NCBI RefSeq assembly: GCF_017311415.1
Contig: NZ_JAEKIS010000001.1
Coordinates: 372,001 to 436,000 of the forward strand
Length of the DNA stretch: 64,000 bases
Source of the DNA: Salipiger abyssi
GTDB lineage: Bacteria > Pseudomonadota > Alphaproteobacteria > Rhodobacterales > Rhodobacteraceae
Direction of reading: 5' to 3'
This document shows, piece after piece, positions 13,548 through 33,089 of this stretch (its first letter is position 1; each line of letters begins with the position of its first letter). Under the pieces are notes generated by a model. That model was not told the origin of the DNA, searched no databases, and worked only from the letters and a program-made list of their open reading frames with translations. Both the position numbers and the translations under genes were made by a program.

Positions 13548-14756
13548 TCAGCCCTTCGCCGCGAGGATCTCTTCGACCAGTGTTTCCGCCCCGAGGCTGG
13601 CGCGGAAATGCGCCTCCACATGCGCGCGCCCGGCCTCACTCAGCCGCTGTGCGTTCTCTGGATGTTGCGCCAGATCGCGGATCGCCCGCGCCAGCGCCGT
13701 GGGATCCTTGGGCGGCACCAGCTTGCCGTTCGCCCCGTCGTCGATCAGCTCGCGCACGCCGCCGGCATCGGTGCCGATGGTGGGCACCCCGCAGGACATC
13801 GCCTCCATATAGGCCACGCCCAGCGGCTCGTGCCACGAGGCCAGCACGAAGACATGGCTCTCGATCAGCTTCTGTTTCACCGCGCCGGCGTCGATGGCGC
13901 CGAGCAGTTTCACATGGTCCTGAAGCCGCAGCTTGCGCAGATGCGCCTCGAGCTCCTTGCGGAAGCCCTCGCCGCCGGCATCGTCCTCGCCGGCAATCTC
14001 CAACCGCACATCGACCCCCTGGTCGAGCAGCTGGCGCACCGCCGACATCAGATCCTGATGGCCCTTCACCACGTTCAATCGCCCGCAGGAAAAAAGCCGG
14101 ATCGGCCGGCCTTTCTCTGGCGGAACATAGGGCGTGTCGCGGCAGAGCACTCTGGTATCCACGCCCATCGGGCGGATCGCGACACGCTCGGGCAGGGCGT
14201 CGGGCATCTCCTCCTGCATCTCCTGCATGAGCTTTTGGGTGATGATCGTCGCAAAGGCGGCGTTGCGCCATTTGAAGCGCTGGCCGGGGCCGTAATCGGA
14301 AAGCGGCCCGTGCAGCGTCAGCGAATAGCTCGGGCCACCCATCTTCTGCGCCAGCGCCGCGATCAGCGCCGCGCGACCGCAGGAATGCACATGCACATGG
14401 TCCAGCTCATGCCCTGCGGCATAGGCGACAAGCGCCTGCGCCGCAGAGAGCGTCACCGCCACGTCCTTGCCAAAACCCACGCCTTCGCGGGCGATCCAGC
14501 CCGCCAGCCCCTTTGGCAAAAGCGCCACCAGCGCGCGCAGCGCCGAGACCGGTTCGATTCGGCCCAGATAGGTGGTGCGGGCAATCGCATCCTGCGACCA
14601 GTCATGCGAAATGAGGCGCGAGGGTGGCATCCGCGTCGAGAGCAGATGCACCTCGTGGCCCATCTCCTCCAGCACCTTTACCTCGCGCCAGAAGAAGATA
14701 TGGGTCTGTCCCGGAAATTGGGGCACTAGATACCCGATCCGCAATCGCTGCGACAC
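13548..14756 (-). CDS. Glycosyltransferase family 4
   Basis: A 402-residue GT-B retaining glycosyltransferase, probably adding a sugar to a lipid-linked exopolysaccharide repeat at the inner membrane. The N-terminal Rossmann half begins 'RIGYLVPQFPGQTHIFFWRE'. The nucleotide-sugar half has 'SCGRLNVVKGHQDLM' and the E-x7-E motif within 'EPLGVAYMEAMSCGVP'. It starts with GTG at 14756 after GAGGAACGC. It is divergent from the GT2-flippase operon and marks the left edge of the polysaccharide/metabolite island. The donor and acceptor sugars cannot be read from the sequence. Confidence 0.85.
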   Translation of the reverse strand: MSQRLRIGYLVPQFPGQTHIFFWREVKVLEEMGHEVHLLSTRMPPSRLISHDWSQDAIARTTYLGRIEPVSALRALVALLPKGLAGWIAREGVGFGKDVAVTLSAAQALVAYAAGHELDHVHVHSCGRAALIAALAQKMGGPSYSLTLHGPLSDYGPGQRFKWRNAAFATIITQKLMQEMQEEMPDALPERVAIRPMGVDTRVLCRDTPYVPPEKGRPIRLFSCGRLNVVKGHQDLMSAVRQLLDQGVDVRLEIAGEDDAGGEGFRKELEAHLRKLRLQDHVKLLGAIDAGAVKQKLIESHVFVLASWHEPLGVAYMEAMSCGVPTIGTDAGGVRELIDDGANGKLVPPKDPTALARAIRDLAQHPENAQRLSEAGRAHVEAHFRASLGAETLVEEILAAKG

Positions 14757-14902: not shown

Positions 14903-15760
14903 ATGACGGGTAAGCGCAACTTTGCCAATGTGCCTGCCGTTTCGGTGATCCTTCCGGCAAGCAACGAGGCGGCGCTGATCGGCGGTTGCCTGCGCGCGCT
15001 CTGTGCCTCGCACTGGTCCGATGCGGGCCCGCTGGAGGTGATCGTGATCGCCAATGGCTGCCGCGACGACACCGCCGAGCGTGCCCGCGCCGAGGCGCCC
15101 GCGTTTGCCGCGCGCGGCTGGGAGCTGCGGGTGATCGAGCGGGCCGAAGGCGGCAAGCTCGGCGCGCTGAATGCCGGCGACGAGGCAGCCCGCGCCTCTG
15201 TGCGCGTCTATCTCGACGCCGACGTGACGGTGAGCCCCGAACTGATGGCCCAGATCCACGCCGCGCTTTCCAAGGAGACGCCGGGCTATGCCAGCGGCAG
15301 GGTTCGGATCACCGCCAAGAGCTGGGTCTCTCGCGCCTATGCGCGGATCTGGCGCCGGGTGCCCTTCATGGCGCGGGGCGTGCCGGGCTGCGGCGTGTTC
15401 GCGGTGAATGCGGCGGGCCGCGCCCGCTGGGGCGCCTTTCCCGATATCATCTCGGACGACACCTTCGTCCGACTCAGCTTCGCGCCCGAAGAGCGCACCG
15501 GCGTGCCCGCGCCCTACGACTGGCCGATTGCCGAAGGCTTCGGCAATCTGGTCAAGGTCCGGCGGCGGCAGGATGCTGGCGTGACCGAAATCGCGGCACG
15601 CTATCCCGATCTTCTGGCAAATGACGACAAAACGCCCTTTCCGGCGAGCCGGAAAATGGCCATGGCCTTGCGCGACCCGCTGGGATTCGCGGTCTATTCC
15701 GGTGTCGCGCTGGCGGTTCGCCTGCGCCCCGCTGCACAGGACTGGAGCCGTGGACGATGA
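14903..15760 (+). CDS. Glycosyltransferase family 2
   Basis: A 285-residue GT-A transferase with the family start 'VSVILPASNEAALIGGCL', the 'VIANGCRDDTAERA' nucleotide loop, the metal-binding D-x-D in 'VYLDADVTVS' and an acidic 'PDIISDDTFVRL' stretch. A short hydrophobic segment near the C-terminus may contact the membrane. ATG 14903 is used, and an in-frame ATG at 14840 would add 21 unrelated residues. It overlaps the flippase gene by 4 bases (ATGA). It is the first gene of the rightward run that leads into the PKS/NRPS genes. Confidence 0.85.
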   Translation: MTGKRNFANVPAVSVILPASNEAALIGGCLRALCASHWSDAGPLEVIVIANGCRDDTAERARAEAPAFAARGWELRVIERAEGGKLGALNAGDEAARASVRVYLDADVTVSPELMAQIHAALSKETPGYASGRVRITAKSWVSRAYARIWRRVPFMARGVPGCGVFAVNAAGRARWGAFPDIISDDTFVRLSFAPEERTGVPAPYDWPIAEGFGNLVKVRRRQDAGVTEIAARYPDLLANDDKTPFPASRKMAMALRDPLGFAVYSGVALAVRLRPAAQDWSRGR

Positions 15761-17124
15761 GCATGGCCTTCATCGAGCGTTTTCACGGCAGCTCGCTCAC
15801 TGCCCGCGCGGTGCGCTCGTCGCTGCTCACCGTCGGAGGCTTCGGCACTGGCCAGTTTCTGCGGCTGGCCTCGAACCTGATCCTCACCCGGCTGCTCTTT
15901 CCCGAGGCCTTCGGCCTGATGGCGCTGGTCTCGGTCTTCATGATGGGGCTCCAGCAATTCTCCGATATCGGCGTGACCCCGGCGATCATGCAGAGCAAGC
16001 GCGGCGACGAGCGCGATTTCCTCGATACCGCCTGGACGATCCAGGTGCTGCGTGGCGGTGGGCTCTGGTTGGCCGCCTGCGGGTTGGCCTGGCCAATGGC
16101 CTGGTTCTACGACGAACCGCAGCTCTTGCAGATCCTGCCAGTGGCGAGCCTCAGCCTGCTGATCCTCGCCTTCCGGCCGACGCGCATGGACACCGCCAAC
16201 CGGCACCTTTTGCTGGGCCGGGTCACGTTGCTGGAATTCGTCACCCAGCTTGTCGGCGTGCTGAGCGCGATCCTGCTGGCCTGGCTCACCGGATCGGTCT
16301 GGGCGCTGGTGCTGAGCGGGCTCATCAGCTGCGCCACCGAGGTGGTGATCAACTCGCTTTTCCTGCCGGGCGCGCGCAACCGCTTCCGCTGGGACAAATC
16401 CGCCGCCCATGAGCTGGTGAATTTCGGCAAGTGGATCTTTCTCTCCACCGTCTGCGGCTTCTTCTTCAGCCAGAGCGACAAGATCCTGATCGGCAAATAC
16501 CTGACGCTCGATCATTTCGGCATCTACAATATCGGCTATTTCCTCGCCTCCTTCCCGATGCTGCTGGGCAGCATGGTGACGCGCAAAGTGCTGATCCCGA
16601 TCTATCGCGAGACGCCGCCCACCGAGAGCCGCCAGAATTTCCTCCGCCTGCGCAAGATGCGCTTTATCGTCACCGGCCTGCTGATCTGCATGGTCGGGGT
16701 CTTTGCGGTGATCGGCGCATGGCTGGTCGGGCTGATGTACGACCCGCGCTATGCGGCCGCCGGCGCGGTGACCGTGATTGTCGCCTGCGTGCAGATGCCG
16801 CAGATCATCGTGCAGACCTACGATCAGGCCGCGCTGGCCGCCGGCGACAGCCGCACCTTTTTCGTGCTGGCGCTGGCGCGCGCGGCGCTGATGGTGGTCT
16901 GCATTCTGCTCGGTCTGGAAATCGCCGGTCTGCTGGGCGCGCTTCTTGGCATGGGCGCGGCCTTCCTGCTCGCCTATCCGGTGGTGGTCTGGCTGGCGCG
17001 GCGCATGGGCGCCTGGGATCCGCTGCACGATGCGATTTTCGCGCTGGCCGGAATCGCACTTGCCGCCATGGCGGTTGCCGTCAACTGGTCCGAGATTGTG
17101 GCTCTGGCGCGGCTGGGCGGATAA
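15757..17124 (+). CDS. MOP-superfamily oligosaccharide flippase (Wzx-like)
   Basis: A 455-residue polytopic membrane protein, roughly 12-14 hydrophobic segments throughout, matching the PST/Wzx branch of MOP exporters. The opening 'SSLLTVGGFGTGQFLRLASNLILTR' region (quoted only in part: 'LRLASNLILTRLLFPEAFG') and 'DKILIGKYLTLDHFGIYNIG' are typical of polysaccharide flippases. It would flip a lipid-linked glycan, or export another amphipathic product. Coupling to the upstream GT2 (4-base overlap) supports a glycan role. The large PKS gene starts 185 bases downstream on the same strand. Confidence 0.87.
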   Translation: MSMAFIERFHGSSLTARAVRSSLLTVGGFGTGQFLRLASNLILTRLLFPEAFGLMALVSVFMMGLQQFSDIGVTPAIMQSKRGDERDFLDTAWTIQVLRGGGLWLAACGLAWPMAWFYDEPQLLQILPVASLSLLILAFRPTRMDTANRHLLLGRVTLLEFVTQLVGVLSAILLAWLTGSVWALVLSGLISCATEVVINSLFLPGARNRFRWDKSAAHELVNFGKWIFLSTVCGFFFSQSDKILIGKYLTLDHFGIYNIGYFLASFPMLLGSMVTRKVLIPIYRETPPTESRQNFLRLRKMRFIVTGLLICMVGVFAVIGAWLVGLMYDPRYAAAGAVTVIVACVQMPQIIVQTYDQAALAAGDSRTFFVLALARAALMVVCILLGLEIAGLLGALLGMGAAFLLAYPVVVWLARRMGAWDPLHDAIFALAGIALAAMAVAVNWSEIVALARLGG

Positions 17125-17309
17125 ACGCCACCGGTTCCCATTCAGCGACAATTCCCCCTGTCTCAGACACTGTATTGCATGGCATAACAATACCCGGTCG
17201 GCGTAGCCTGAAAGATGGCGAAGGCTGGATGGATACCTAAAAAGCGCCGCATTTTCTCCCCATTCCTCCTTTACGCGGGGCAAAGTCTGATGTGACGGGG
17301 TACCAGGTC
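17125..17309 (+). promoter_or_regulatory. Leader region upstream of the PKS gene with a short inverted repeat
   Basis: This 185-base gap is the only sizeable non-coding stretch between the flippase and the PKS and is a likely promoter region for the assembly-line operon. It is less GC-rich than its surroundings. It contains an inverted repeat GTATTG (17172-17177) and CAATAC (17188-17193) around a 10-base centre, which could be a regulator half-site pair. I see no convincing -35/-10 pair. Confidence 0.35.
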
Positions 17310-20300
17310 ATGAGCGCAGAAACGCAGCACCAAACCGGCGAAAACGACATTGCTATCGTCGGCATGGCCGCGCATCTTCCGGGTGCAGAGAACATCCAGC
17401 GCTACTGGGACAATCTGCGTGCCGGGCGCAGCGCCATCCGCCGGCTCTCCGAAGAGGAGCTGCTGGAGGCGGGCGAGGATCCCGGCCTCATCCGTCACAA
17501 GGATTACGTGCCCTTCGCCGCGCCGCTCGACGATTTCGAGATGTTCGATGCCGAGTTCTTTGGGTTCTCTCCGAAAGAGGCGGCGATCATGGATCCGCAG
17601 CACCGGCAGTTCCTCGAAACCGCTTGGGAGGCGCTGGAAAACGCCGGCCATGTGCCCGAGAGCTTCGACGGTCAGGTCGGTGTCTTCGCGGGCTGCGGTA
17701 TGGGCAGCTATTTCTATTTCAACGTCTGCTCGAACCCGGATCTTGTCGAGAATACCGGCATGTTCCTGCTGCGCCATACCGGCAACGACAAGGATTTCAT
17801 GACCACCCGGCTGAGCCATGTGCTCGATCTGCACGGGCCGTCGATCAACCTGCAAACCGCCTGCTCGACCTCGCTCGTGGCCACCCATTACGCCGCGCAG
17901 GCGCTGCTCAATGGCGAATGCGACATGGCTCTCGCCGGGGGCGTGACCATCGAGCTGCCGCAGGGCCGGGGCTATCTCTACAAGGAAAACGAGATCCTCT
18001 CGCCCGACGGGCAATGCCACGCCTTCGACCATCGCGCGCAGGGCACGGTGTTCGGTTCCGGCGTGGGGGTCGTGGTGCTGCGGCGGCTGGCGGATGCCAT
18101 TGCCGACGGCGATCACATCTGGGCGGTGATCAAGGGCACCGCCGTGAACAATGACGGCGCGCAAAAGGCCGGCTATCTGGCGCCTTCCGTCGACGGGCAG
18201 GCGCAGGCGGTGGCCGAGGCGCAGGCGGTGGCGGGCGTGAGCTCCGACAGCATCGACTATGTGGAATGCCACGGCACCGGCACCTATCTGGGCGATCCCA
18301 TCGAGGTCGCAGCCATGACCCAGGCCTTCCGCGAGACCTCGGCCGCCGTGGGCCATTGCCGCATCGGCTCTGTGAAGACCAATATCGGCCATCTCGATAC
18401 GGCGGCGGGCGTCGCGGGCCTCATCAAGACCTCGCTGGCGCTGCATGAGGGCGAGATCCCGCCCTCGCTGGGCTATGAGGCGCCGAACCCGGCGATCGAG
18501 TTCGAGACTTCGCCGTTTATGGTTAACGACACACTCACACCCTGGCCGACAAGTGATCATCCGCGCCGCGCCGGGGTGAATGCGCTGGGCGTCGGCGGCA
18601 CCAACGCGCATGTCGTGCTGGAAGAGGCGCCCGCGCAGGCGCCCTCCGAAGACAGCGACTGGCCGTTTCAGATTCTGACGCTGTCGGCGCGCAGCAAGGG
18701 GGCGCTCGACGAGGGCGCAAGGCGTCTCGCTGCGCATCTGCGCGCCCATCCCGAGCAGCCGCTCGCCGATATTGCCTGGACGCTGAAGGAAGGCCGCCGC
18801 GCCTTCGAGAAACGCCGCATCGTGGTGGCCGAAAGCCACGAAGAGGCCGCCTGCCTGCTGGAAGAGGACGCCCCCCGCCGGGTGCATTCGCATTCCGCGC
18901 TGGACCGGCCGGACGTGGCCTTCATGTTCCCCGGCGGCGGCGCGCAATATGCCGGCATGGCGCGCGATCTCTACGAAACCGAGCCGGTCTTTGCCGAATG
19001 GATGGATCGCGGGCTCGATACGCTGGCCGAGATCTCCGACCATGACATCCGCGCGCTCTGGCTTCCCGAAGAGGGCGCCCGCGAAGACGCGGACGCGGCG
19101 CTCACCCGCCCCTCGCTGCAACTGCCGCTGATCATGATCAACGAATACGCGCTGGCGCAGCTCTGGATGAGCTGGGGCGTTCAGCCCGTTGCGCTGGCAG
19201 GTCACTCCATGGGCGAGAACACCGCCGCCTGCCTCGCCGGGGTCATGAGTTTCGAGGATTGCATCGGTCTCGTGCATCTGCGCGGCCGGCTCTTCGACAG
19301 CGTGCCCGCCGGTGGCATGCTTTCGGTCAACCTCACCGCCGACGCGCTTCAGCCCTATCTCGGCGAAGAGCTCGACCTCGGCGCCGTCAACGCGCCCGAG
19401 CTGACCGTCGCCTCCGGGCCGCAGGCGGCGCTCGACGCGCTGGAGAAGCGGCTGAAATCCGAGGGCATTGACTGCCAGCGCATCCAGATCGACATCGCGG
19501 CGCATAGCCGGATGCTGGAACCGATCCTCGACCAGTTCCGCGCCTATCTGCGCTCCATCGACCTTTTCGCGCCGCAGATCCCGCTGACCTCCAACCGCAC
19601 CGGCACGCTGATGACCGCAGAGCAGGCGACCTCGCCCGATTACTGGGTCGAGCATCTGCGCGGCACCGTGCATTTCGCCGACTGCATCGGCACGCTGGCA
19701 AAGCCCAACCGCATCTTCCTTGAGGTCGGCCCCGGCAAGGCGCTTTCCGCACTCGCCCGCCAGCACCCGGATGTGCCGGGCCAGCAGGTACTCTCCTCGC
19801 TGCGTCACCGCGACGATATCATCGCCGACGACAAGCATATGTTCGAAGTGCTGGGCCGTCTCTGGGCGCTGGGCGCGCAGATCGACTGGGATCAGATCTG
19901 GGGCGATGCGCGGCGCAGCCGCGCGGTGCTGCCGTCTTACGCCTTCCAGCGCGCCCCCTATTTCATCGCGCCGGGCCAGCGGCAGGCCGAGACCGCACCG
20001 CAATATCTGATGCGGAGTGACGATGTGTCGGGCTGGGGCTGGAAGCCGGTCTGGCGTCCGCGCGCGGCGGAGGTCGAGGTCGATGTGGCCGAAGGGCTCG
20101 CGGATGCCGAACCGCAGTGCTGGCTCATGTTCATGGACGAAGCGGGGCTTGCCGCCCGCGCCGCCGCGAAACTGAAAGCCGCCGGTCACACGGTGGTCGA
20201 GGTGCGGCCCGGCGACAGCTTTACCCGGCTCTCGGATACGTCCTATCTGCTCGCCCCGGAACGCGGTCGCGAGGGCTATGACCTGCTGGTGCAGGATCTG

Positions 20301-23300
20301 GCGCTGCGCGGCCATGTGCCGACCCGGATCGCGCATTTCTGGCTGGTGACCGAGGGCGAGAGCCACCGCCCCGGATCGAGCTTTTTCCACCGGGTGCAGG
20401 AGCAGGGATTCTATTCGCTGCTCTTCCTCGCCCAGGCCGTGGCCGAGGAAAACCTGCCGCGCCCGCTGCATCTGACCGTGGTCACCAGCGGCGCCGCACG
20501 GCTGCGCGACGAGGCGCTGCCCTACCCGTCGAAAGCCACCATTGCCGGGCCCGCGCGCGTGATCCCGCGCGAGCTGCCGGGCGTGTCGGTCTCGACCCTC
20601 GATCTTGCCCTGCCCGCGCCTGTGCAGGGCGGGTTCTTCACCCGCAAATCCGCCGAGGCCAAACACGAGGCCGCGCTTGAGGCGCTGAGCCTTCAGGTTC
20701 TTGAAGAGCTGCTGTCCGAACCCGCCGATACGATTGCCGCCCTGCGCGGCGCGCGGCGGTTCGAATGTGCGATGAAGCCGGTGGCGTTGCCTGACGCTGC
20801 GCCGGTCGCCACCGAAGGCGGCACCTATCTGATCACCGGCGGCTTTGGTGGCATCGGCCTGACGCTGGCGCAGGAGTTTGCGGCCAAGGGCGCCAATCTG
20901 GTGCTGGTCGCCCGCAACGACCTGCCCGAGCGGTCGCATTGGCCCGACTATCTCTCGCGCCACGCGCCGCAGGACAGCACCGCCCGCCGCATCCGCGCTG
21001 TGATGGCGCTGGAAGAGGCCGGCGCCGAGGTGATGATCGCCGCCGCCGATGTCTGCAACCTGACGCAGATGCAGCGGGTGAAAGACACCGCCGAGGCCAA
21101 GTTCGGCGCGATCACGGGCGTGATCCACGGCGCCGGGGTCATCGACGACGGCCCGCTGCTGACCAAAAGCCCGGCCTCGGTCGAGGATGTGTTCACGCCC
21201 AAGATCCACGGCACCCAGGTGCTGGGCGAGCTGTTCCCGGACGGATCGGTCGACTGGATGGTGCTCTTTGCGTCCTCCTCCACCGTCACCGCGCCCGCGG
21301 GACAGGTGGATTACGTCGCCGCCAACGAATATCTCAACGCCTTTGCCCAGGCCCGTGCGGGCGGCCAGACCCGCGTCGTGGCGATCAACTGGGGCATCTG
21401 GAATGAGGTCGGCATGGCCGCCGAGGCCGTCGCCGCACGCCGGGGCGAGGTGCCCAAGGCGCCGGTCGAGCCTGCGGGCGTGCCGATGCTGGATCAAAAG
21501 ACCTTTGACGCGCAGGGCAACCGGCTCTTCACCGCCAGCTATTCCGCCAGCGACTGGTTCATCGACGAGCACCGCACCAAATCGGGCGACGCGCTGCTGC
21601 CCGGCACCGGCTATCTGGCGCTGGCCGCCGAGGCGCTGCGCGCCCAGAACGAGACCGGCGGGTTCGAGATCCGCGATCTGACCTTCCTGCGCCCGCTGCG
21701 GGTCGCCGATGGTGGCGCACGCGAGATGCGGCTGCGGCTGTCGCGCCGTGACGAGGGCTATAGCTTTGACGTGCTGGCCGATGCCACGCTGGCGGGCAAG
21801 CGCGGCTTTGCGCTGACCGCGCAGGGCACTCTGGCGCTCATGCCGATGCGCCGCCCCGACCCGCTCGACCTCTCCGCGATCCGTGCCCGCTGCGGCAAGC
21901 CGCTGCTCGCCGAGCCGGGCGCCAGGCTCGCCGCCGCACAGGAGGTGCAGCTGCAATTCGGTCCGCGCTGGAAGGTGCTGGACAGCCGCGCATTGGGCAA
22001 GGGCGAGGGCATCGCCGAGCTGTCGCTGGCGGACAGCGCCCGCGCCGATGGCTGCCTGCTGCACCCCGCGCTGATGGACATCGCGACCGGCTGGGCCATG
22101 GAGCTGATCGACGGTTATCAGCCCACGCATCTCTGGGTGCCGCTCTCCTACACCCGCGTCCGTGTGCATGCGCCGCTGACCGAGCAGATCGTGAGCTGGG
22201 TGCGCAACGCCGCCGAAAACCGCGCCGATGCCGCCACCGCCAGCTTTGACATCACGCTTTGCGCGCCCGATGGCGCGGTGCTGGTCGAGATCTCGGGCTT
22301 CACCATCCACAAGCTGGCGCAGGCCGACATCCTGCACGCCGCCCCGCGCCTCACCGCCGCCGAGCTGGAACTCGACGGGCCGCAGGACGCGGCACAGCCC
22401 CTTTCGGCCGCCGAGGAACGTCTGGCGCACAATCTCAGCCAGGGCATCCTGCCCGAAGAGGGCGTCAGCGCCTTTGCCCGCGCCCTCTCGCTCGGCGCGC
22501 CGCAACTGGTGATCTCGTCGATGGATCTCGATCAGCTCGCCGCGCAGACCGCCGCCTCCACCGCCGAGAAGGGCGAGGTGCAGAAATTCGACCGCCCGCA
22601 GCTCGAAGGCGATTACGTCGCCCCCGAGAACGATATCGAGCGCACGCTCGTCGGTTTCTGGGAGGATCTTCTGGGCGTGCAGAATGTTGGGGTCGAAGAC
22701 AGTTTCTTCGATCTGGGCGGGCACTCGCTGATCGCGGTGCGGCTCTTTGCCATGGTCAAGAAGGCCTATCGCATCGACTTCCCAATCTCCGTGCTGTTCG
22801 AGGCACCGACGATCCGCAAATGCGCCGCGCTCATCGCCGAGCAGGCGGGCATCGTCGCGGATGAGGAGACCGCGGACGGCACGCCCAAGGCCCCCGAGCG
22901 CCGCTTTACCCATATCGTGCCGATGCATGATGGCGAGGGCGGGCCGCGCACGCCATTCTTCCTGGTGGCGGGCATGTTCGGTAATGTGCTGAACCTGCGC
23001 CACCTCGCGCATCTGCTGGGCGCCGACCGGCCGTTCTATGGCTTGCAGGCGCGCGGGCTTTACGGTGGCGAAGAGCCGCATCGCAGCATCGAGGAGGCGG
23101 CGCGCGACTACATCGTCGAGATGCGGCAGGTGCAGCCGCAAGGCCCCTATATGGTCGGCGGTTTCTCGGGCGGCGGCATCACCGCCTTCGAAATCGCGCG
23201 GCAGTTGGAGCAGATGGGCGAGGAGGTGTCGCTCTGCGTGCTGCTCGACACGCCGCTGCCCATGCGCCGCCCGCTGGAACGCCGCGACCGGATGATGATC

Positions 23301-23768
23301 CAGTGGCAGGAGGCGAGGGCCAAGGGCCTGTTCTACCCGCTGATCTGGGCCCGCAACCGGATCCGCTGGGAGATTGCCAAGCGGCAGGCGAAAGACAGCA
23401 CCGAGGCACAGCACAGCTTCCACAATGCCGAGATCGAGGCGGCCTTCCTCAGCGCCGTCGCGCAGTACCGCGTGCGTGCCTGGGACGGGCGGCTGGTGCT
23501 CTACCGTCCGCCGCTGGTGGGCAAGTGGACGGTGTCGCAGGGCCGCATGGTGAATTCCGAACGCGCCTATGTGATGCATGACAACGACTGGGGCCAGTTC
23601 GTGCCGCATGTCGAGGTGCACGAGGTGCCGGGTGACCACGATTCCATGGTGCTGGAGCCCAATGTGCGGGTGCTGGCCGGCCTCATGCGCGAGGCGATCA
23701 CCGGGGCCGAGGCGCAGCGGCGCGGCGCGCAGGTGGTGGATTTCCCCGGTCACCGGGCAGCGGAGTGA
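17310..23768 (+). CDS. Type I modular polyketide synthase, KS-AT-KR-DH-ACP-TE
   Basis: A 2152-residue single-module PKS (ATG 17310; a GTG at 17292 would add 6 residues). Ketosynthase about 13-440 has Cys185 in 'TACSTSL', His321 in 'HGTGT' and His361 in 'NIGHLD'. Acyltransferase about 535-885 has 'GHSMGE' (Ser633) and 'AAHS', probably malonyl-type but not decisive. A structural KR half leads to ketoreductase 'TYLITGGFGGIG' near 1172 with Tyr in 'VDYVAANEY' (1335). Dehydratase about 1395-1680 has His1421, an 'LLPGTGY' loop and Asp1590 in 'HPALMD'. The carrier protein has Ser1806 in 'LGGHSL', and the terminal thioesterase has Ser1953 in 'GGFSGGG'. There is no enoylreductase. KR precedes DH, the reverse of the usual modular order. 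It likely makes a beta-hydroxy or alpha,beta-unsaturated acyl unit released by the thioesterase. Confidence 0.92.
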   Translation: MSAETQHQTGENDIAIVGMAAHLPGAENIQRYWDNLRAGRSAIRRLSEEELLEAGEDPGLIRHKDYVPFAAPLDDFEMFDAEFFGFSPKEAAIMDPQHRQFLETAWEALENAGHVPESFDGQVGVFAGCGMGSYFYFNVCSNPDLVENTGMFLLRHTGNDKDFMTTRLSHVLDLHGPSINLQTACSTSLVATHYAAQALLNGECDMALAGGVTIELPQGRGYLYKENEILSPDGQCHAFDHRAQGTVFGSGVGVVVLRRLADAIADGDHIWAVIKGTAVNNDGAQKAGYLAPSVDGQAQAVAEAQAVAGVSSDSIDYVECHGTGTYLGDPIEVAAMTQAFRETSAAVGHCRIGSVKTNIGHLDTAAGVAGLIKTSLALHEGEIPPSLGYEAPNPAIEFETSPFMVNDTLTPWPTSDHPRRAGVNALGVGGTNAHVVLEEAPAQAPSEDSDWPFQILTLSARSKGALDEGARRLAAHLRAHPEQPLADIAWTLKEGRRAFEKRRIVVAESHEEAACLLEEDAPRRVHSHSALDRPDVAFMFPGGGAQYAGMARDLYETEPVFAEWMDRGLDTLAEISDHDIRALWLPEEGAREDADAALTRPSLQLPLIMINEYALAQLWMSWGVQPVALAGHSMGENTAACLAGVMSFEDCIGLVHLRGRLFDSVPAGGMLSVNLTADALQPYLGEELDLGAVNAPELTVASGPQAALDALEKRLKSEGIDCQRIQIDIAAHSRMLEPILDQFRAYLRSIDLFAPQIPLTSNRTGTLMTAEQATSPDYWVEHLRGTVHFADCIGTLAKPNRIFLEVGPGKALSALARQHPDVPGQQVLSSLRHRDDIIADDKHMFEVLGRLWALGAQIDWDQIWGDARRSRAVLPSYAFQRAPYFIAPGQRQAETAPQYLMRSDDVSGWGWKPVWRPRAAEVEVDVAEGLADAEPQCWLMFMDEAGLAARAAAKLKAAGHTVVEVRPGDSFTRLSDTSYLLAPERGREGYDLLVQDLALRGHVPTRIAHFWLVTEGESHRPGSSFFHRVQEQGFYSLLFLAQAVAEENLPRPLHLTVVTSGAARLRDEALPYPSKATIAGPARVIPRELPGVSVSTLDLALPAPVQGGFFTRKSAEAKHEAALEALSLQVLEELLSEPADTIAALRGARRFECAMKPVALPDAAPVATEGGTYLITGGFGGIGLTLAQEFAAKGANLVLVARNDLPERSHWPDYLSRHAPQDSTARRIRAVMALEEAGAEVMIAAADVCNLTQMQRVKDTAEAKFGAITGVIHGAGVIDDGPLLTKSPASVEDVFTPKIHGTQVLGELFPDGSVDWMVLFASSSTVTAPAGQVDYVAANEYLNAFAQARAGGQTRVVAINWGIWNEVGMAAEAVAARRGEVPKAPVEPAGVPMLDQKTFDAQGNRLFTASYSASDWFIDEHRTKSGDALLPGTGYLALAAEALRAQNETGGFEIRDLTFLRPLRVADGGAREMRLRLSRRDEGYSFDVLADATLAGKRGFALTAQGTLALMPMRRPDPLDLSAIRARCGKPLLAEPGARLAAAQEVQLQFGPRWKVLDSRALGKGEGIAELSLADSARADGCLLHPALMDIATGWAMELIDGYQPTHLWVPLSYTRVRVHAPLTEQIVSWVRNAAENRADAATASFDITLCAPDGAVLVEISGFTIHKLAQADILHAAPRLTAAELELDGPQDAAQPLSAAEERLAHNLSQGILPEEGVSAFARALSLGAPQLVISSMDLDQLAAQTAASTAEKGEVQKFDRPQLEGDYVAPENDIERTLVGFWEDLLGVQNVGVEDSFFDLGGHSLIAVRLFAMVKKAYRIDFPISVLFEAPTIRKCAALIAEQAGIVADEETADGTPKAPERRFTHIVPMHDGEGGPRTPFFLVAGMFGNVLNLRHLAHLLGADRPFYGLQARGLYGGEEPHRSIEEAARDYIVEMRQVQPQGPYMVGGFSGGGITAFEIARQLEQMGEEVSLCVLLDTPLPMRRPLERRDRMMIQWQEARAKGLFYPLIWARNRIRWEIAKRQAKDSTEAQHSFHNAEIEAAFLSAVAQYRVRAWDGRLVLYRPPLVGKWTVSQGRMVNSERAYVMHDNDWGQFVPHVEVHEVPGDHDSMVLEPNVRVLAGLMREAITGAEAQRRGAQVVDFPGHRAAE

Positions 23769-23773
23769 GTGAC

Positions 23774-24796
23774 ATGCAACCGAAGCTTCTGGTCATATCG
23801 CTGAATTTCCGCACCGCCGAGATGACGCTGCGCTCGGTGCAGTTCGCGTTGCGCGAAATGCAGGGGCTCAATGCCGAGCTGGTGATCGTCGACAACGATA
23901 GCGGCGACGGCTCCTTCGAGACGATGCAGGCGGCGCTGGCCTCCGAGCCTTGGGCGCAGTGCGCGCCGGTGCGGCTGATCCAGTCGGGCCACAACGGTGG
24001 CTTTGGTGCGGGCAACAATGTCGGCATCCGCGCCGGCTGGTCCGATGGCAGCCGGCCCGATTACGTCTATATCCTGAACTCCGATGCCTTCCCCGATCCG
24101 GGCAGCATCCGCGCGCTTTACGACCATCTCGAAAGCCACCCGGCGACGGGGTTTGCCGGCAGCTATATCCATGGCGAGGACGGAGAGGCGCATATGACCG
24201 CCTTCCGTTTCCCTTCGGTTGCGTCGGAATTCGAGGGCGCCGCGCGGTTCGGGCCGTTCTCACGTTTGCTCAAGCACAAGATCGTGCCCATCGGCATCCC
24301 GCAGACCCGCGAGCGGGTCGACTGGCTCGCCGGTGCCTCGATGATGATGCGACAATCGGTGCTGGACGAGATAGGGCTCTTTGACGAGACCTTCTTTCTC
24401 TATTTCGAGGAAACCGACCTCTGCCTGCGCGCCGCCCGCGCCGGGCATGAAGTGCACTATATTCGCGACAGCGAGGTGACGCATATCGGCTCGGTCTCGA
24501 CCGGGATGAAGACATGGCAGCGTATACCGGGCTTCTGGCTCGACAGCCGCTGGCATTACTATTCGAAAAACCATGGCCGGGCCTATGCGGCTCTGGCGAC
24601 GCTTGCGCATGTGGCGGGCGGGGGGCTGTGGCGCCTGCGCCGGCTGGTGCAGAACAAGCCCCCGGCAGACCCGCCGCATTTCCTGCGCGATCTGGTTTTT
24701 CATGACCTCAAGGCGCTGGTCCGGCCCCTGCCGGGAAAGCGCGCGGCGGTGACCTCCCCAAAGGACGGCACCGCGTTTGAGACCCCAGCGGAGTAA
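23774..24796 (+). CDS. Glycosyltransferase family 2 (rhamnosyltransferase-like)
   Basis: About 340 residues, starting at ATG 23774, which has GGAG 8 bases upstream; a GTG at 23765 overlapping the PKS stop is a weaker choice. GT-A features are 'ELVIVDNDSGDGSFE', 'GHNGGFGAGNNVGIRA', the D-x-D-like 'ILNSDAFPDP', and 'FFLYFEETDLCLRAARAGH', which is characteristic of WbbL/rhamnosyltransferase-type GT2 enzymes. It sits between the PKS and NRPS genes, 5 bases from each, so it is plausibly a tailoring enzyme that glycosylates the polyketide-peptide product or a step in the glycan it joins. Confidence 0.86.
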   Translation: MQPKLLVISLNFRTAEMTLRSVQFALREMQGLNAELVIVDNDSGDGSFETMQAALASEPWAQCAPVRLIQSGHNGGFGAGNNVGIRAGWSDGSRPDYVYILNSDAFPDPGSIRALYDHLESHPATGFAGSYIHGEDGEAHMTAFRFPSVASEFEGAARFGPFSRLLKHKIVPIGIPQTRERVDWLAGASMMMRQSVLDEIGLFDETFFLYFEETDLCLRAARAGHEVHYIRDSEVTHIGSVSTGMKTWQRIPGFWLDSRWHYYSKNHGRAYAALATLAHVAGGGLWRLRRLVQNKPPADPPHFLRDLVFHDLKALVRPLPGKRAAVTSPKDGTAFETPAE

Positions 24797-24801
24797 GCGA
24801 T

Positions 24802-27800
24802 ATGGCCCAGTTTTCCAGTGTGGTGATCGGCAACGAATCCCTCCTCGTGCAGTGCAGCGAAAAGCTGCTGGCGGCGGGGCATCCCATCCGCGCGGTGGTG
24901 ACCCGCAACGCGGATATTGCCGAGTGGGCCGAGGGGCGCGGGCTGCGCGTGATCGCGCCGGGCAAGGGGCTGGCCGAGCGGCTGGAGGGGCTGGAATTCG
25001 ACTGGCTGCTGTCGATCTCCAATCTCGACATCATCCCCGCCGCCGTGCTGGCGATGCCCGCCAGGGGCGCGGTCAACTTCCATGACGGTCCACTGCCGCG
25101 CCATGCCGGGCTCAACGCGCCGGTCTGGGCGCTGATCGCGGGCGAGAGCCGGCACGGCATCACCTGGCACATGATCGAAGGCGGCGTGGACGAGGGCGAT
25201 ATCCTCGTCTCGCGCGGCTTTGACGTGTCGTCGAGCGACACGGCGCTGACGCTCAACACCAAGGCCTATGAGGCCGCCATCGACAGTTTCGGCGACCTGA
25301 TGGAGCAGCTCGAACACGGGCTGCGGCGGGTGCCGCAGGATCTGAGCTTCCGCAGCTATCACGCGCTGGCCGACCGGCCTTCGGCGCATGGGCTGCTGGA
25401 TTTCGCTAGGCCCGCGCCCGAGCTGGCGCGGCTGGTGCGCGCGCTGGATCACGGCGGCTATGCCAACCCGCTGTCCGCGCCCAAGCTGCGCGCGCATGGC
25501 AAGCTTTGGCTCGTGGGCAAGGCGGTTGCGGTCGAGGGCACTGGCGCCCCCGGCGCGGTGCTGGAGGCGACCGACGATCACCTGACCGTCGCCTGCGGCA
25601 GCGGCGCGCTCAAGATGGCGCATTTCACCCATCTCTGCGGCGCGCTGGCGCTGGTCGCACAGGTCGGCAAGCCGGGGGATGTGCTGGAGCTGCTCTCTGC
25701 CGAGGAGCGCGCGGGGGTCGATGCAAAGATCGCGCAGGTTGCGCCCAGCGAAGGCTATTGGCGCAAGCGCCTGAGCGCGCTCGCCCCGGTCGAGCTTCAG
25801 GGACTCGGCAAGAGCGGCGGCGAGTTGGTCTCGCGCCCGCTGTCGCTGGGTCCGGACGCGCTGGCGCTGGTCGCCGGCTGGGCGGCGCGGCTCGACGGGC
25901 ACGAGATCTGCGATCTGGCCTATGCCGACGCGACGCTGAAAGATCTTTCCGAAGGCGGCTTCATCTCCCCCTGGGCGCCGCTGCGGGTCGAGGCGACCGG
26001 CACGGTGCAGGCGCTTTCCGAGGCCGTTGAAGCAGAGCTGGCCAAGGTGCAGAAACACAAGGGCTTTGCCACCGATCTGCCTGCCCGCGAGCCCGCCCTC
26101 TCCGGTGCGCCGCAGGTGCCGCATGTGGGCCTCAGCTTTGGCGCGGGTCCCATCCCCGGCACCGCCGTCACTGTCGAGCTGGGTGCAGACGGCGCCACGC
26201 TCTACACCGATACCGGGCGCATGCCGCAGGCGCAGGCCGAGCTGCTGGCCGCGCGGCTGGAGCTTCTGGCAGGCGCGGCGCAAGGAGAGGCTCTGCTCGC
26301 TTCCCTGCCTGCGCTGCCCGAGGCCGAGCGGGATCTGGTGCTCAACGCCTGGAACGCCACCGCACAGGACCATGACCGCAGCCTGACCATGCAGGCGGCC
26401 TTCGAGGCACAGGTCGCGAAAACCCCAGATGCCGTCGCGCTGGTTTTTGAGGACCAGTCGCTGACCTATGCCCAGCTCGACGCGCGCGCCAATCAGGCGG
26501 CGCAGGTGCTGCGTGGCATGGGGGTGCAGGCGGGCACCGTCGTGGGGCTCTTCACCCGCCGCTCGGTCGACCTGATGGTCGGCGCGCTGGGGATCCTCAA
26601 GGCCGGCGGCGCCTATCTGCCGCTCGACCCGTCCTATCCCGCCGACCGCCTGAAGCACTACATCGCCGATAGCGGCGCGCCGGTGATCGTCACGCAAGCG
26701 GCGCTGCAAGCCGATCTGCCCGAACACAAGGCCGAGCTCTTGGTCATCGACGCCGACCCGCGTCTGGCGCAGGCCCCCTCCACGCCGCTCGGTGCCACCA
26801 GCACGCCCGAAGATCTGGCCTATGTGATCTATACCAGCGGCTCGACCGGCACGCCCAAGGGCGTGATGATCGAGCATCGCAATGTGCTGAACTTCTATCT
26901 CGGCATGGATGCCAATGTTCCGCACGATCCGGCGGGCACCTGGCTGGCGGTCACAAGTCTGTCCTTCGACATCTCGGTTCTGGAGCTCTTCTACACCACC
27001 GCGCGCGGCTTTACCGTCGTGCTGACCTCGGACGAGGATCGCGGACTGATCTCCAAGGGTCCGATGCCGCTCTCGGACAGCGCGATGGATTTCTCGATCT
27101 ATTACTGGGGCAATGACGATGGCGTCGGGCGCGACAAATACGCCCTGCTGCTCGAAGGCGCGAAATTCGCCGACGAGAACGGCTTTGTTGCCGTCTGGAC
27201 GCCGGAGCGCCATTTCCACGCTTTCGGCGGCCCCTATCCGAACCCCTCGGTGACCGGCGCCGCGGTGGCTGCCGTCACCCGCAATATCGCCGTGCGCTCG
27301 GGCTCGGTCGTCGCGCCGCTGCACCACCCGGCGCGCATCGCCGAGGAATGGGCGGTGATCGACAACCTGACCAACGGGCGCGCGGGGCTGGCCATCGCCT
27401 CCGGCTGGCAGCCCGACGATTTCGTGCTGCGCCCGGAAAACACCCCGCCCAACAACAAGACGGCGATGATTGAGAATATTTCCCAAGTTAGGGAATTGTG
27501 GCGCGGCAATCCCGTTGCCTTTCCCAAGCAGGACGGCAGCATGCACGAGGTCGTGACGCAACCGCGTCCGGTCTCTTCCGAGCTGCCGATCTGGGTGACA
27601 ACGGCGGGCAACCCCGACACCTGGAAAGAGGCGGGCAAGCTGGGTTGCAACGTGCTGACCCACCTTCTGGGCCAGTCTATCGAAGAGGTGGCGGGCAAGA
27701 TCCGTCTTTATCATGAGGCGCTGCGCGAGGCCGGGTATGACCCCAAGGATTTCAAGGTCACGCTGATGCTGCACACCTTCCTCGCCGACACCCGCGACCA

Positions 27801-29496
27801 CGCCCGCGAGGTGGCGCGCGAGCCGATGAAGGATTACCTGCGTTCGGCTGCGGGTTTGATCAAGCAATACGCCTGGGCCTTCCCCGCCTTCAAACGGCCG
27901 CAGGGGGTGAACAACCCGTTCCAGCTCGATCTGGAAATCCTCACTCCGGAAGAGCTCGACGCGATCCTGGATTTCGCCTTCGAGCGCTATTTCAATGACA
28001 GCGGTCTCTTTGGCACCGTCGAGGACGCGCTCGACCGCACCGAAGAGCTGAAGCGCATCGGCGTGGGCGAGATCGCCTGCCTGATCGACTACGGCATCGC
28101 GCGCGAGCAGGTGCTGGAGGGGCTGCGACCGCTGGCGAAGGTGGTCAAACAGGCCAATGTCGCGCCGGAGCTGGATGAAGACGATTTCTCCATCGCCGCG
28201 CAGATCCTGCGCCATGGCGTGACGCATATGCAGTGCACGCCCTCCATGGCCCGGATGATCGCGATGAACGACGAGGCGCGCTACGCGCTGTCGAAGGTGC
28301 AGCATCTGTTCCTCGGCGGCGAGCCGCTGCCCGGCGCGCTGGTGCAGGAATTCGCCAAGATCACCGAGGCGTCGGTCACCAATATGTACGGGCCGACCGA
28401 GACGACGATCTGGTCCTCGACCGAGGTCGCCAGCGCGGCGGATGGTGTGGTGAATATCGGCCTGCCGCTGGCCAACCAGCAGCTTTACGTGCTGGACGAG
28501 GCGCGGCAGCCGGTCGGCGTGGGCATGCCGGGCGAGCTGTGGATCGGCGGCGAGGGCGTGACGCGCGGCTATTGGGGCCGCGAGGAGATGACCGCCGAGC
28601 GCTTTGTCGAAAACCCGTTCCATGGCGGTCGGATGTATCGCACCGGCGATCTGGTGCGCCGCCGCATCGACGGCAGGATCGACTTCATCGGTCGTGTCGA
28701 TCATCAGGTGAAACTGCGCGGCTTCCGCATCGAGCTGGGCGAGATCGAGGCGGTGCTGGAGGATCAGCCGGGAGTCACCCAGGCGGTGGTTGTGGCGCGC
28801 GAGGATCAGCCGGGCGATCTCCGGCTGGTGGGGTACTACACCTCCGAGGCGCCGCTGAACGAGGCGACGGTCAAGGCCGCGATGAGTGCCGATCTTCCGG
28901 CCTTCATGGTGCCGACGCATCTGGTGCGGCTCGAGGCCTTCCCGCTGACGCCGAACAAGAAGGTCGATCGCAAGGCGCTGCCGGCGCCGGTGGCCAGGAA
29001 GGTCGCGGCACCGAAACCGTCGGCGGCCCCCGTGGTGCAGGCCGCGCCCGCTGTCGCCGCGGGCAAAGTGCAGGACAGCGGCAGGCTTCAGGCGCAGATC
29101 GCGGAGATCTGGTCGACGGTGCTGGGTGTGGCCGATATTTCGGGCCGTGACAGCTTCTTCGATCTGGGCGGGCATTCGCTGCTGGCGGTGCAGGCGCACC
29201 GCTCGATCCGCGATGAGCTGGGCGCCAAGGGGCTATCGATCACCGATATCTTCCGCTTCCCGGTGTTGGAGGATCTGACCGCGCGCGTCGCCGCGCTGAC
29301 CGATCCCGCTGCCGCGACCCCGCCCGTGCGCGCCAAGGCGCCGGCGCCGGTTGCTGCGCCCGTTGTGGCGGCGCCGGAACCGGTGGCCGTTCCCGCCGCA
29401 GCCCCCGCGCCGGCCCCTGCCGTCAATGACCGCGCGCAGGCCCGCTCCGACGCCATGGCCCGCCGCCGCGCGATGCGCGCACGGCGCAGCGCCTGA
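24802..29496 (+). CDS. NRPS: formyltransferase - degenerate C - adenylation with inserted luciferase-like monooxygenase - PCP
   Basis: A 1564-residue synthetase. Residues 1-300 match a formyltetrahydrofolate-dependent formyltransferase ('NFHDGPLPRHAG', Asn92, His94; 'GVDEGDILV', Asp130). Residues 315-520 resemble the back half of a condensation domain but show no HHxxxDG. The adenylation domain starts near 530 with 'YVIYTSGSTGTPKGV' (674-688) and 'LSFDISVLELF' (720-730). It is interrupted at about 760-1115 by an FMN-dependent luciferase-like monooxygenase ('MDFSIYYWGNDDG', 'WTPERHFHAFGG', 'LHHPARIAEEWAVIDNLTNG') of the MupA/Atu3671 type, then resumes with 'LFLGGEPLP', 'MYGPTETTIW', 'YRTGDL', 'KLRGFRIELGEIE' and 'NKKVDRKAL'. 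The carrier Ser is 1459. A Pro/Ala-rich basic tail ends the protein. No thioesterase is present. It resembles a formylating initiation module. Confidence 0.92.
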   Translation: MAQFSSVVIGNESLLVQCSEKLLAAGHPIRAVVTRNADIAEWAEGRGLRVIAPGKGLAERLEGLEFDWLLSISNLDIIPAAVLAMPARGAVNFHDGPLPRHAGLNAPVWALIAGESRHGITWHMIEGGVDEGDILVSRGFDVSSSDTALTLNTKAYEAAIDSFGDLMEQLEHGLRRVPQDLSFRSYHALADRPSAHGLLDFARPAPELARLVRALDHGGYANPLSAPKLRAHGKLWLVGKAVAVEGTGAPGAVLEATDDHLTVACGSGALKMAHFTHLCGALALVAQVGKPGDVLELLSAEERAGVDAKIAQVAPSEGYWRKRLSALAPVELQGLGKSGGELVSRPLSLGPDALALVAGWAARLDGHEICDLAYADATLKDLSEGGFISPWAPLRVEATGTVQALSEAVEAELAKVQKHKGFATDLPAREPALSGAPQVPHVGLSFGAGPIPGTAVTVELGADGATLYTDTGRMPQAQAELLAARLELLAGAAQGEALLASLPALPEAERDLVLNAWNATAQDHDRSLTMQAAFEAQVAKTPDAVALVFEDQSLTYAQLDARANQAAQVLRGMGVQAGTVVGLFTRRSVDLMVGALGILKAGGAYLPLDPSYPADRLKHYIADSGAPVIVTQAALQADLPEHKAELLVIDADPRLAQAPSTPLGATSTPEDLAYVIYTSGSTGTPKGVMIEHRNVLNFYLGMDANVPHDPAGTWLAVTSLSFDISVLELFYTTARGFTVVLTSDEDRGLISKGPMPLSDSAMDFSIYYWGNDDGVGRDKYALLLEGAKFADENGFVAVWTPERHFHAFGGPYPNPSVTGAAVAAVTRNIAVRSGSVVAPLHHPARIAEEWAVIDNLTNGRAGLAIASGWQPDDFVLRPENTPPNNKTAMIENISQVRELWRGNPVAFPKQDGSMHEVVTQPRPVSSELPIWVTTAGNPDTWKEAGKLGCNVLTHLLGQSIEEVAGKIRLYHEALREAGYDPKDFKVTLMLHTFLADTRDHAREVAREPMKDYLRSAAGLIKQYAWAFPAFKRPQGVNNPFQLDLEILTPEELDAILDFAFERYFNDSGLFGTVEDALDRTEELKRIGVGEIACLIDYGIAREQVLEGLRPLAKVVKQANVAPELDEDDFSIAAQILRHGVTHMQCTPSMARMIAMNDEARYALSKVQHLFLGGEPLPGALVQEFAKITEASVTNMYGPTETTIWSSTEVASAADGVVNIGLPLANQQLYVLDEARQPVGVGMPGELWIGGEGVTRGYWGREEMTAERFVENPFHGGRMYRTGDLVRRRIDGRIDFIGRVDHQVKLRGFRIELGEIEAVLEDQPGVTQAVVVAREDQPGDLRLVGYYTSEAPLNEATVKAAMSADLPAFMVPTHLVRLEAFPLTPNKKVDRKALPAPVARKVAAPKPSAAPVVQAAPAVAAGKVQDSGRLQAQIAEIWSTVLGVADISGRDSFFDLGGHSLLAVQAHRSIRDELGAKGLSITDIFRFPVLEDLTARVAALTDPAAATPPVRAKAPAPVAAPVVAAPEPVAVPAAAPAPAPAVNDRAQARSDAMARRRAMRARRSA

Positions 29497-29500
29497 GCGG

Positions 29501-30157
29501 ATGACGCCCGACGCCCTCGCGGCGGAGATATCGCAGCTCGGCCTGCCCGAAGGGCTCGGCTGGGCCGTCACCACCCCCCAGACAGATCCCGGCGCGCTCT
29601 TCCCCGAAGAGCGCGCCGCCATGCAAAAGGCGGTGCCCGCGCGGCTGGCGGAGTTCACCGGCGGACGGGTCGCGGCGCGGCGGGCGATGGCGCAGCTTGG
29701 CCTCACGCCGGGGCCGGTCGCGATGGATCCCGACCGCGCGCCGCGCTGGCCCGAGGGTCTCGTCGGCAGCATCACCCATGCGGCCGGGTTCTGTTTCGCT
29801 CTGGTTAGTCATATTTCGGACTGGCGCGCCATCGGGGCCGATCTGGAACGCGACGCGGCACTGCCCGACGAGATCGTTGCGGAAGTCGCCACGCCACAGG
29901 AACTCGCCAGCCTCGCGCCGCTGCCCGCTCGCAAGGCCGCCGCGCGAATCTTCAGTGCCAAGGAAGCCGCCTATAAGGCGCAATATCCGCTGACCCGGTG
30001 CCTCTTTGGATTCGACGCGATGCAGGCGGATCTGCCCGCCGGAGAAATGCGCATGATCCGTGACACCGGCCCCGGGATGGGCGCTGCCCTGCCCATGCGG
30101 CAGCACCTCCTGCCCGGGTTGATCCTGTCGCTTTGCCTCATGCCAGCAAACAGCTGA
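29501..30157 (+). CDS. 4'-phosphopantetheinyl transferase (EntD-like)
   Basis: A 218-residue Sfp/EntD-family enzyme that should convert apo ACP and PCP domains of the adjacent synthases to the holo form using coenzyme A. It has the three family motifs: 'GSITHAAGF', 'IGADLERD' (metal-binding acidic pair) and 'FSAKEAAYKA' (K-E-A-x-x-K). It starts at ATG 29501, 4 bases after the NRPS stop, so it is the last gene of the assembly-line operon. The dedicated transferase supports a functional cluster. Confidence 0.92.
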   Translation: MTPDALAAEISQLGLPEGLGWAVTTPQTDPGALFPEERAAMQKAVPARLAEFTGGRVAARRAMAQLGLTPGPVAMDPDRAPRWPEGLVGSITHAAGFCFALVSHISDWRAIGADLERDAALPDEIVAEVATPQELASLAPLPARKAAARIFSAKEAAYKAQYPLTRCLFGFDAMQADLPAGEMRMIRDTGPGMGAALPMRQHLLPGLILSLCLMPANS

Positions 30158-30281: not shown

Positions 30282-30366
30282 TAGTGCATCTGCGGCGACG
30301 TTTGCAGAACGTGTATGGGCTCTTTCCGAACGCAGGGTGGGGGCCACACGTTGCGGGAGTAACGAG

Positions 30367-33037: not shown

Positions 33038-33068
33038 GCCCCTGAACTCCGAGCGACAAGCGCGGATC

Positions 33069-33089
33069 CGTGCCGGTATTCGCGGCACG
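33069..33089. promoter_or_regulatory. 7-bp hairpin in the leader of the tyrosine-kinase-like gene
   Basis: CGTGCCG (33069-33075) pairs with CGGCACG (33083-33089) across a 7-base loop, about 32 bases ahead of the kinase start on the minus strand. It may be a 5'-leader hairpin or an operator. The rest of the 233-base gap (33038-33270) is AT-richer and probably carries the kinase promoter, but I cannot assign boxes with confidence. Confidence 0.35.

Follow-up and report, generated by a model that had tools for sequence, protein, structure and literature searches.

The 64,000-nucleotide stretch of Salipiger abyssi DNA analyzed here, referred to below as the window (contig NZ_JAEKIS010000001.1, positions 372,001 to 436,000; G000:C1:372001-436000 in a genome of 5.2 Mb), encodes a type I polyketide synthase (PKS), a nonribosomal peptide synthetase (NRPS), a family-2 glycosyltransferase located between them (GT2b), and a 4'-phosphopantetheinyl transferase (PPTase). 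Open reading frame (ORF) calling combined with Pfam and NCBIfam scans places the genes for a second family-2 glycosyltransferase (GT2a) and a Wzx-type flippase immediately before this set (Table 1), and the order, rightward direction, and coordinates of the six genes agree with an original prediction made from the sequence. Exopolysaccharide genes flank the run on both sides, as had also been claimed, and encode an EpsE-type family-4 glycosyltransferase (GT4), Wzz-like, BY-kinase-like and WecG-like proteins, and sugar oxidoreductases. The locus thus contains both a Wzx flippase and a Wzz protein, the pair by which a Wzx-type polysaccharide locus was recognized. The predicted spacing of 4-5 bases holds for PKS-GT2b (5 bases, from the ATG start), GT2b-NRPS (5 bases), and NRPS-PPTase (4 bases), but not for Wzx and the PKS, which are separated by a real gap of 167-185 bases; the GT2a and Wzx genes overlap by 4 bases. 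Tight coupling thus applies to PKS-GT2b-NRPS-PPTase.

Architecture of the two assembly-line enzymes

The PKS and NRPS named in the original prediction are both present, but no condensation (C) domain was found in the NRPS, which carries two elements that the prediction did not list, a formyltransferase (F) and a monooxygenase inside the adenylation (A) domain. Specifically, the N- and C-terminal domains of the formyltransferase (PF00551, 1.8e-15) are followed by approximately 240 residues, the split A domain, a peptidyl carrier protein (PCP), and a basic C-terminal tail. The modelled structure of residues 1-530 (mean pLDDT 91.5) matches the ArnA and Fmt formyltransferases at 1e-22 over approximately 300 residues; sugar N-formyltransferases are also among the structural matches, and a sugar may, by the fold alone, be a compatible substrate. 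Residues N92, H94, and D130, which we take to be catalytic, are kept in all 87 sequences of an NRPS alignment composed of the window protein and those ORFs from loci L003-L093 that passed length and score filters, including that of L093, a locus with no glycan genes in the stretch fetched. The end of the 240-residue stretch aligns to the ends of the condensation domains of McyB (7.8e-13) and Txo2 (8.6e-10), while its start has no convincing match and the motif HHxxxDG occurs in none of the 87 homologues, and we therefore call it a C-domain remnant. For the same reason (HHxxxDG missing in 87/87), the reading of this protein as an ordinary NRPS was rejected.

Between its A4 and A5 motifs, the A domain is interrupted by a luciferase-like monooxygenase (MOX) of the MupA/Atu3671 type (TIGR04020, 2.9e-143 at residues 764-1114), and residues 761-1111 match the PuwE chain in PDB 6ket at 2.3e-100. 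The substrate code, its positions mapped via motifs under what we take to be GrsA numbering, reads DILQFGMIWK in the window. Across the 87 NRPSs, the D, I, L, Q, G, W, and K of DILQxGMIWK are invariant, the M and the I that follows it are each present in 86, and only position 299 varies. Nine of the ten window positions equal DILQLGMIWK, the code shared by glycine A domains bearing a MOX that cleaves glycine, as described in the accessible part of the source (PMC12283262), and the A domain is predicted to be glycine-specific. The carrier serine is present in 86 of the 87 NRPSs, the remaining one being unreadable (X).

In MtaG and MelG, a MOX-interrupted glycine A domain belongs to the chain-ending module. 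The enzyme described here resembles the MOX-interrupted glycine A domains in its code and its inserted monooxygenase, but differs in that the domain lies in a starting module, beside an F domain (PMC12283262, in part). Similarly, CongA (conglobatin) and OzmO (oxazolomycin) share with it an F-A(Gly)-PCP initiation that feeds a PKS (PMC4504003, in part), whereas the A domain here is interrupted by a monooxygenase, a single PKS module follows, and the setting is one of glycan genes. A CongE-type oxazole line was considered and rejected, since the CongE/OzmP signature SGGKDS is missing from all six frames of the window and of the 80 related loci described below, to which the search was limited. 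Alpha-hydroxylation has been proposed for the PuwE and FbnE monooxygenases (PMC4219810, PMC12971057, accessible parts), which belong to other assembly lines with other products; the PuwE domain lies between PKS and NRPS modules, not within an A domain.

The PKS consists of ketosynthase (KS), acyltransferase (AT), ketoreductase (KR), dehydratase (DH), acyl carrier protein (ACP), and thioesterase (TE) domains, with the KR preceding the DH. In an alignment of 80 PKS sequences, from which the longer PKS of L093 dropped out by length, the residues C191, H327, and H367 of the KS, S639 and H738 of the AT, Y1341 and N1345 of the KR, H1427 and D1596 of the DH, S1812 of the ACP, and S1959, D1986, and H2116 of the TE are kept in all 80, as is D1286, the second aspartate of an LDD-type motif in the KR. 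The AT motif, AAH, is unusual, and a malonyl extender is therefore an assumption. A Pfam scan revealed no enoylreductase (ER) domain in the PKS, and a saturated lipid product is consequently not expected.

Distribution of the cluster and its genomic setting

A single scan of an 84,980-species genome collection, in which the NRPS front served as query, yielded at least 556 confirmed stretches, the best 80 of which (L009-L088) were compared. Most of these loci are titled Rhodobacterales, and the closest named locus among the matches listed is that of Salipiger pentaromativorans (90% identity over the NRPS front). In 79 of the 80, the genes for PKS, GT2b, and NRPS follow one another directly on the same strand, the exception being L021, whose contig begins in GT2b; such contiguity argues against a chance association of the trio. 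The PPTase gene directly follows that of the NRPS in 65 loci, Wzx precedes the PKS by no more than 1.2 kb in 52, a Wzz-like gene is found downstream in 55, and a GT2a homologue is present beyond the core in 63.

Consistent with the conserved co-occurrence that the original prediction had anticipated, tblastn with seven glycan proteins of the window detected glycan genes beyond the core in 74 of the 80 loci, as compared to 1 of 19 controls, each a 20-kb stretch taken arbitrarily from a different NRPS-bearing genome of the family. The six glycan-negative loci (L053, L058, L064, L073, L075, and L076) are among the seven contigs shorter than 11 kb. In a plasmid collection, all 10 loci examined, out of 15 records with at least 80% cover, likewise carry glycan genes. 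Around the core, gene order is window-like (type 1) in 51 of the 80 loci, has WecG upstream in 13, and is of another kind in 5, the remaining 11 being short contigs. Taken together, F-A(MOX)-PCP and KS-AT-KR-DH-ACP-TE enzymes with their catalytic residues kept are encoded with glycan genes in many genera.

Among 100 genomes of the family, a GT2b orthologue (E <= 1e-100) is found in 40, an F-type NRPS in 40, and both in 39; in each of these 39 the two genes are adjacent by their printed coordinates (at most 170 bases apart, on the same strand). The odd genomes are G028, in which PKS and GT2b lie at a contig end, and G022, a fragment. The NRPS is rarer beyond the family: when genomes were drawn evenly, the cut-off was passed by 7 of 289 from the class, four of them in the family, the window's own included, and by 15 of 398 from the phylum, 10 of them in the family. 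Two of the seven class-level genomes, G333 and G348, do not resemble the system and were set aside. Their DNA is too AT-rich for the ORF caller, and the comparison was made by tblastn: NRPS matches show 25-39% identity, the window PKS aligns with carrier-like stretches alone in G333, and no PKS match was obtained in the 7.5-kb contig of G348. Three weaker matches are present in G563. Gene distances correlate between the NRPS and the PKS (0.95), GT2b (0.89), and Wzx (0.87), and all four cluster genes occur together in the Leisingera loci L043, L058, L067, and L080.

The taxonomic titles of some loci warrant comment. L087 (titled Nocardioides marinus) and L032 (titled Enemella evansiae) have gene orders and identities like those of Leisingera and Mameliella loci and may be mislabelled or contaminated. 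The NRPSs of L053, L059, and L085, from metagenome-assembled genomes of Hydrogenophaga, fall inside a Rhodobacterales branch of the tree, reflecting either horizontal transfer or mis-binned contigs.

An NRPS/PKS/glycosyltransferase/PPTase cluster with an uncharacterized product was previously noted in 28 of 57 sequenced roseobacter genomes (Collins et al., 2015; PMC4337385), and, judging from the accessible part of that report, it comprises the same four genes as the window. In Phaeobacter, PKS and NRPS gene numbers are two apart (Inhi_1972/1974 and Daep_00050/00048), which fits one gene between them. The polysaccharide context, the prediction of domains and substrates, and the members outside the roseobacters are, relative to that part of the report, additions made here; a literature search thin on subscription papers turned up no report that connects the cluster with polysaccharide.

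Glycan neighbourhoods extend to more distant hosts, namely Methylobacterium (L089), Rhizobium (L091), G381, G626, and G517. The PKS and NRPS genes are divergent in L006, L008, L090-L092, G626, and G517, and stand in series, NRPS before PKS, in L089 and G381; the PKS of L089 likewise ends in ACP-TE. A different arrangement is found in L093, a plasmid of Aliiroseovarius (Rhodobacterales), and in G666 (L146/L147), where an F-A-MOX-PCP gene is followed by one encoding a single protein with the order KS-AT-KR-DH-ACP-C-A-PCP-TE, and hence an extra C-A-PCP. The surroundings of L093 contain denitrification genes, with the exosortase xrtD in the region, and those of G666 a TRAP transporter and thiamine genes. 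When a tree of 39 NRPSs is rooted at its midpoint, L093 and G666 form one clade (support 1.0) beside L089 and G381; under this uncertain root, the glycan link would have been gained twice or lost once. A free product of L093 or G666 could reveal the shared starter chemistry. The 6.2-kb contig of G022 (L115), which has an A-PCP-TE end at one extremity and the beginning of an F domain at the other, may come from a third L093-type sibling.

Neighbouring genes and companion proteins

No priming sugar transferase (PF02397) or Wzy (PF04932) was found in the window by a scan of the same contig, which did give four bacterial sugar transferase and two Wzy_C matches (one below its cut-off) elsewhere on the contig; a sugar transferase is present in some of the other loci. 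The BY-kinase name given to the ATPase in Table 1 is based on a 42% identical relative in L004, annotated CpsD/CapB. Counts of predicted promoters (2; mean of shuffles 1.5, standard deviation 1.2) and terminators (10; mean 7.7, standard deviation 2.6) were not clearly higher than in shuffled sequence.

Two kinds of companion protein recur among 94 sources, comprising loci L003-L093, two stretches of G381, and the window. A protein with ten transmembrane segments (10-TM), matched in 25 of the 94, is called Wzy-like by its topology. In 19 of the 94, there is a gene, in many cases directly after that of the PPTase, whose product combines an SGNH-like motif (GHSLVG ... DxIHxND) with a signal-like or lipoprotein-like N-terminal stretch; weaker relatives (27-29%) are encoded close to the PKS in G517 and G626. 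A Pfam scan assigned no family to the SGNH-like or 10-TM proteins tested. A Foldseek search with a model of the SGNH-like protein gave no match at E <= 0.001; its top rows mix GDSL and carbohydrate esterases (4rw0, 2vpt, 2hsj, 7e16; probability 0.97-0.99) with clearly unrelated matches, and the assignment therefore rests mainly on the motif. In several loci the gene is followed by one for an 833-residue protein whose first domain is related (35% identical), and the two are possible polysaccharide acyl-modifying enzymes. No SGNH-like relative was found in the window's own genome, in a search run without a positive control; the protein is accordingly not a general transfer enzyme, and we regard it as a candidate modifier.

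Further features were noted at single loci. In Paracoccus marcusii (L007:1-3310), a second gene with an amino acid adenylation annotation lies in the same polysaccharide locus, beside a WecB/TagA/CpsF glycosyltransferase. A beta-helix/NosD-like protein is encoded near the PKS in Methylobacterium (L089:29734-31272) and in G381 (L110:4033-5571), and in both a similar 413-residue protein with no Pfam match adjoins the NRPS.

Table 1. Features of the window and, in the last two rows, of locus L043
Feature	Position	Strand	Evidence and remarks
EpsE-type GT4	13548..14756	-	NF041876 1.2e-191, above cut-off
GT2a, family-2 glycosyltransferase	14903..15760	+	PF00535 1.4e-16; ATG 14903
Wzx-type oligosaccharide flippase	15757..17124	+	PF13440 6.1e-49
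Type I PKS, KS-AT-KR-DH-ACP-TE	17292 (GTG) or 17310 (ATG)..23768	+	Pfam domains
GT2b, rhamnosyltransferase-like GT2 between PKS and NRPS	23774 (ATG; GTG 23765 possible)..24796	+	PF00535 1.2e-12; TIGR01556 2.9e-11, below its cut-off
NRPS: formyltransferase, C-domain remnant, A domain split by luciferase-like monooxygenase, carrier, basic C-tail	24802..29496	+	
PPTase	29501..30157	+	PF17837 2.3e-25; PF01648 1e-12
Wzz-like chain length protein	30337..31692	+	PF02706 1.4e-7
CpsD/BY-kinase-like ATPase	31751..33088	-	PF01656 7.2e-7
Gfo/Idh/MocA-epimerase fusion	33271..35370	-	PF01370, PF01408
GT2, GT4, short-chain dehydrogenase/reductase (SDR) epimerase, MocA oxidoreductase	35382..39686	-	ORF starts overlap, uncertain
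WecG/TagA-like glycosyltransferase	39946..40710	+	PF03808 8e-42
SGNH-like protein	L043:15249-16184		
Gene after the SGNH-like gene	L043:16181-18682		

A possible role in surface polysaccharide synthesis

We give roughly even odds (about 0.5) to the reading that the PKS-GT2-NRPS-PPTase set forms a conserved sub-pathway belonging to a Wzx-type surface polysaccharide locus. That the assembly line has some role in a glycan pathway is, in our judgment, quite likely; that its product is a covalent acyl substituent of the glycan is a tentative proposal, at slightly less than even odds. From the architecture, residue conservation, and context described above, we infer a substrate, an order of steps, an oxidation site, a number of extensions, and a mode of transfer, as follows. 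The PPTase would activate the carriers of both enzymes, and the NRPS would load glycine and N-formylate it, formylglycine being quite likely the starter. The inserted flavin monooxygenase may oxidize the alpha carbon of glycine or that of the extended acyl chain, and the PKS would add one malonyl unit, reduce it, and perhaps dehydrate it. The TE would then release or transfer a formamido-C4 acyl unit, hydroxylated and/or unsaturated, to be attached to a repeat-unit sugar; GT2a and GT2b would build the lipid-linked oligosaccharide and Wzx would flip it. That the NRPS acts before the PKS is suggested by the initiating function of F domains (PMC4504003, in part), by the presence of the TE on the PKS, and by the position of the F-A-MOX-PCP gene ahead of the PKS in L093 and G666. 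The "polyketide-peptide unit" of the original prediction would thus be very small, one formylglycine plus one two-carbon unit if the PKS acts once. Since the catalytic residues and nine of the ten code positions are invariant or nearly so while the glycan genes differ, the data point to a single, constant small acyl unit that is used in many polysaccharides.

Several observations weigh against this reading. The counts cover the 80 best-matching loci of at least 556 confirmed, and the context of at least 476 others lies outside them. Because the glycan queries were the window's own proteins, the test partly measures, and favours, shared gene order; the stronger argument for a glycan context is provided by the 18 loci of other gene order and the 10 plasmid-collection loci. 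Matched gene distances are also expected from shared ancestry. In the Hyphomicrobiales loci examined, no GT2 lies between PKS and NRPS, and GT2b is therefore not universal. No separate acyltransferase was detected by Pfam among the window ORFs scanned (9-43 kb), and neither a product, a mutant, nor a glycan structure came to light for the cluster. Lastly, tblastn with GT2b and the glycan proteins of the window found no match in the fetched stretches of L093 and G666. The original prediction had named a block free of glycan genes as its counter-case; that situation was encountered in this sibling line alone, whose PKS continues into C-A-PCP-TE, and the overall interpretation is partly supported.

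The siblings lend some weight to the alternative that the product is secreted as a free small molecule, such as a metal chelator, signal, or antibiotic, to which GT2b may add a sugar; the line's co-location with polysaccharide genes would then reflect a shared surface life and one travelling island. A TE usually releases a free acid, and the inserted monooxygenase is of the same luciferase-like type as FbnE. The alpha-hydroxycarboxylates of the siderophore fabrubactin are proposed, in the accessible part of the source, to be formed by FbnE, a flavin monooxygenase (PMC12971057). Yet both glycan-free siblings possess the longer PKS, the glycan genes of 74 of the 80 loci occur in several gene orders, and no siderophore receptor or uptake families turned up among the scanned window ORFs; we judge a free product to be somewhat unlikely.

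The capsule PKSs RkpA and WcbR have a lipid or primer role, and their clusters carry a capsule ABC exporter; an iterative PKS could likewise supply a lipid anchor or a primer for the polysaccharide here. PKS genes within capsule clusters provide precedent, and mono-modular PKSs can iterate (PMC3908369, in part). The setting, a type I PKS in a polysaccharide locus, is shared. The accessible text of that source, however, names no glycine NRPS partner for RkpA/WcbR, and the scan of the window ORFs revealed no capsule ABC exporter. Moreover, all 87 NRPSs keep the F-A(MOX)-PCP starter with a glycine-type code, L093 and G666 have the same PKS domain order in a colinear hybrid, and the lack of an ER domain speaks against a saturated lipid, making this explanation improbable. 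We hold it to be similarly doubtful that the gene order was simply inherited from one ancestral island in the absence of functional coupling; the predominance of Rhodobacterales among the 80 loci and the correlated distances of NRPS, PKS, GT2b, and Wzx would fit such descent, but several glycan gene orders surround the same line, and further orders are found in Hyphomicrobiales.

If the set does serve a surface polysaccharide locus, the orphan roseobacter cluster of 2015 would gain a testable role in surface polysaccharide synthesis, and the genome-mining label "hybrid PKS-NRPS", with its expectation of a soluble metabolite, would be misdirecting, the product being one to seek on the glycan. 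We know of no earlier glycan substituent made by a hybrid NRPS-PKS. With some hesitation, we suggest that many marine Alphaproteobacteria may decorate differing polysaccharides with one constant acyl group derived from N-formylglycine, perhaps a metal-binding alpha-hydroxy acid; this would constitute a new type of glycan modification and would provide a handle on attachment and biofilm formation in an abundant marine group.

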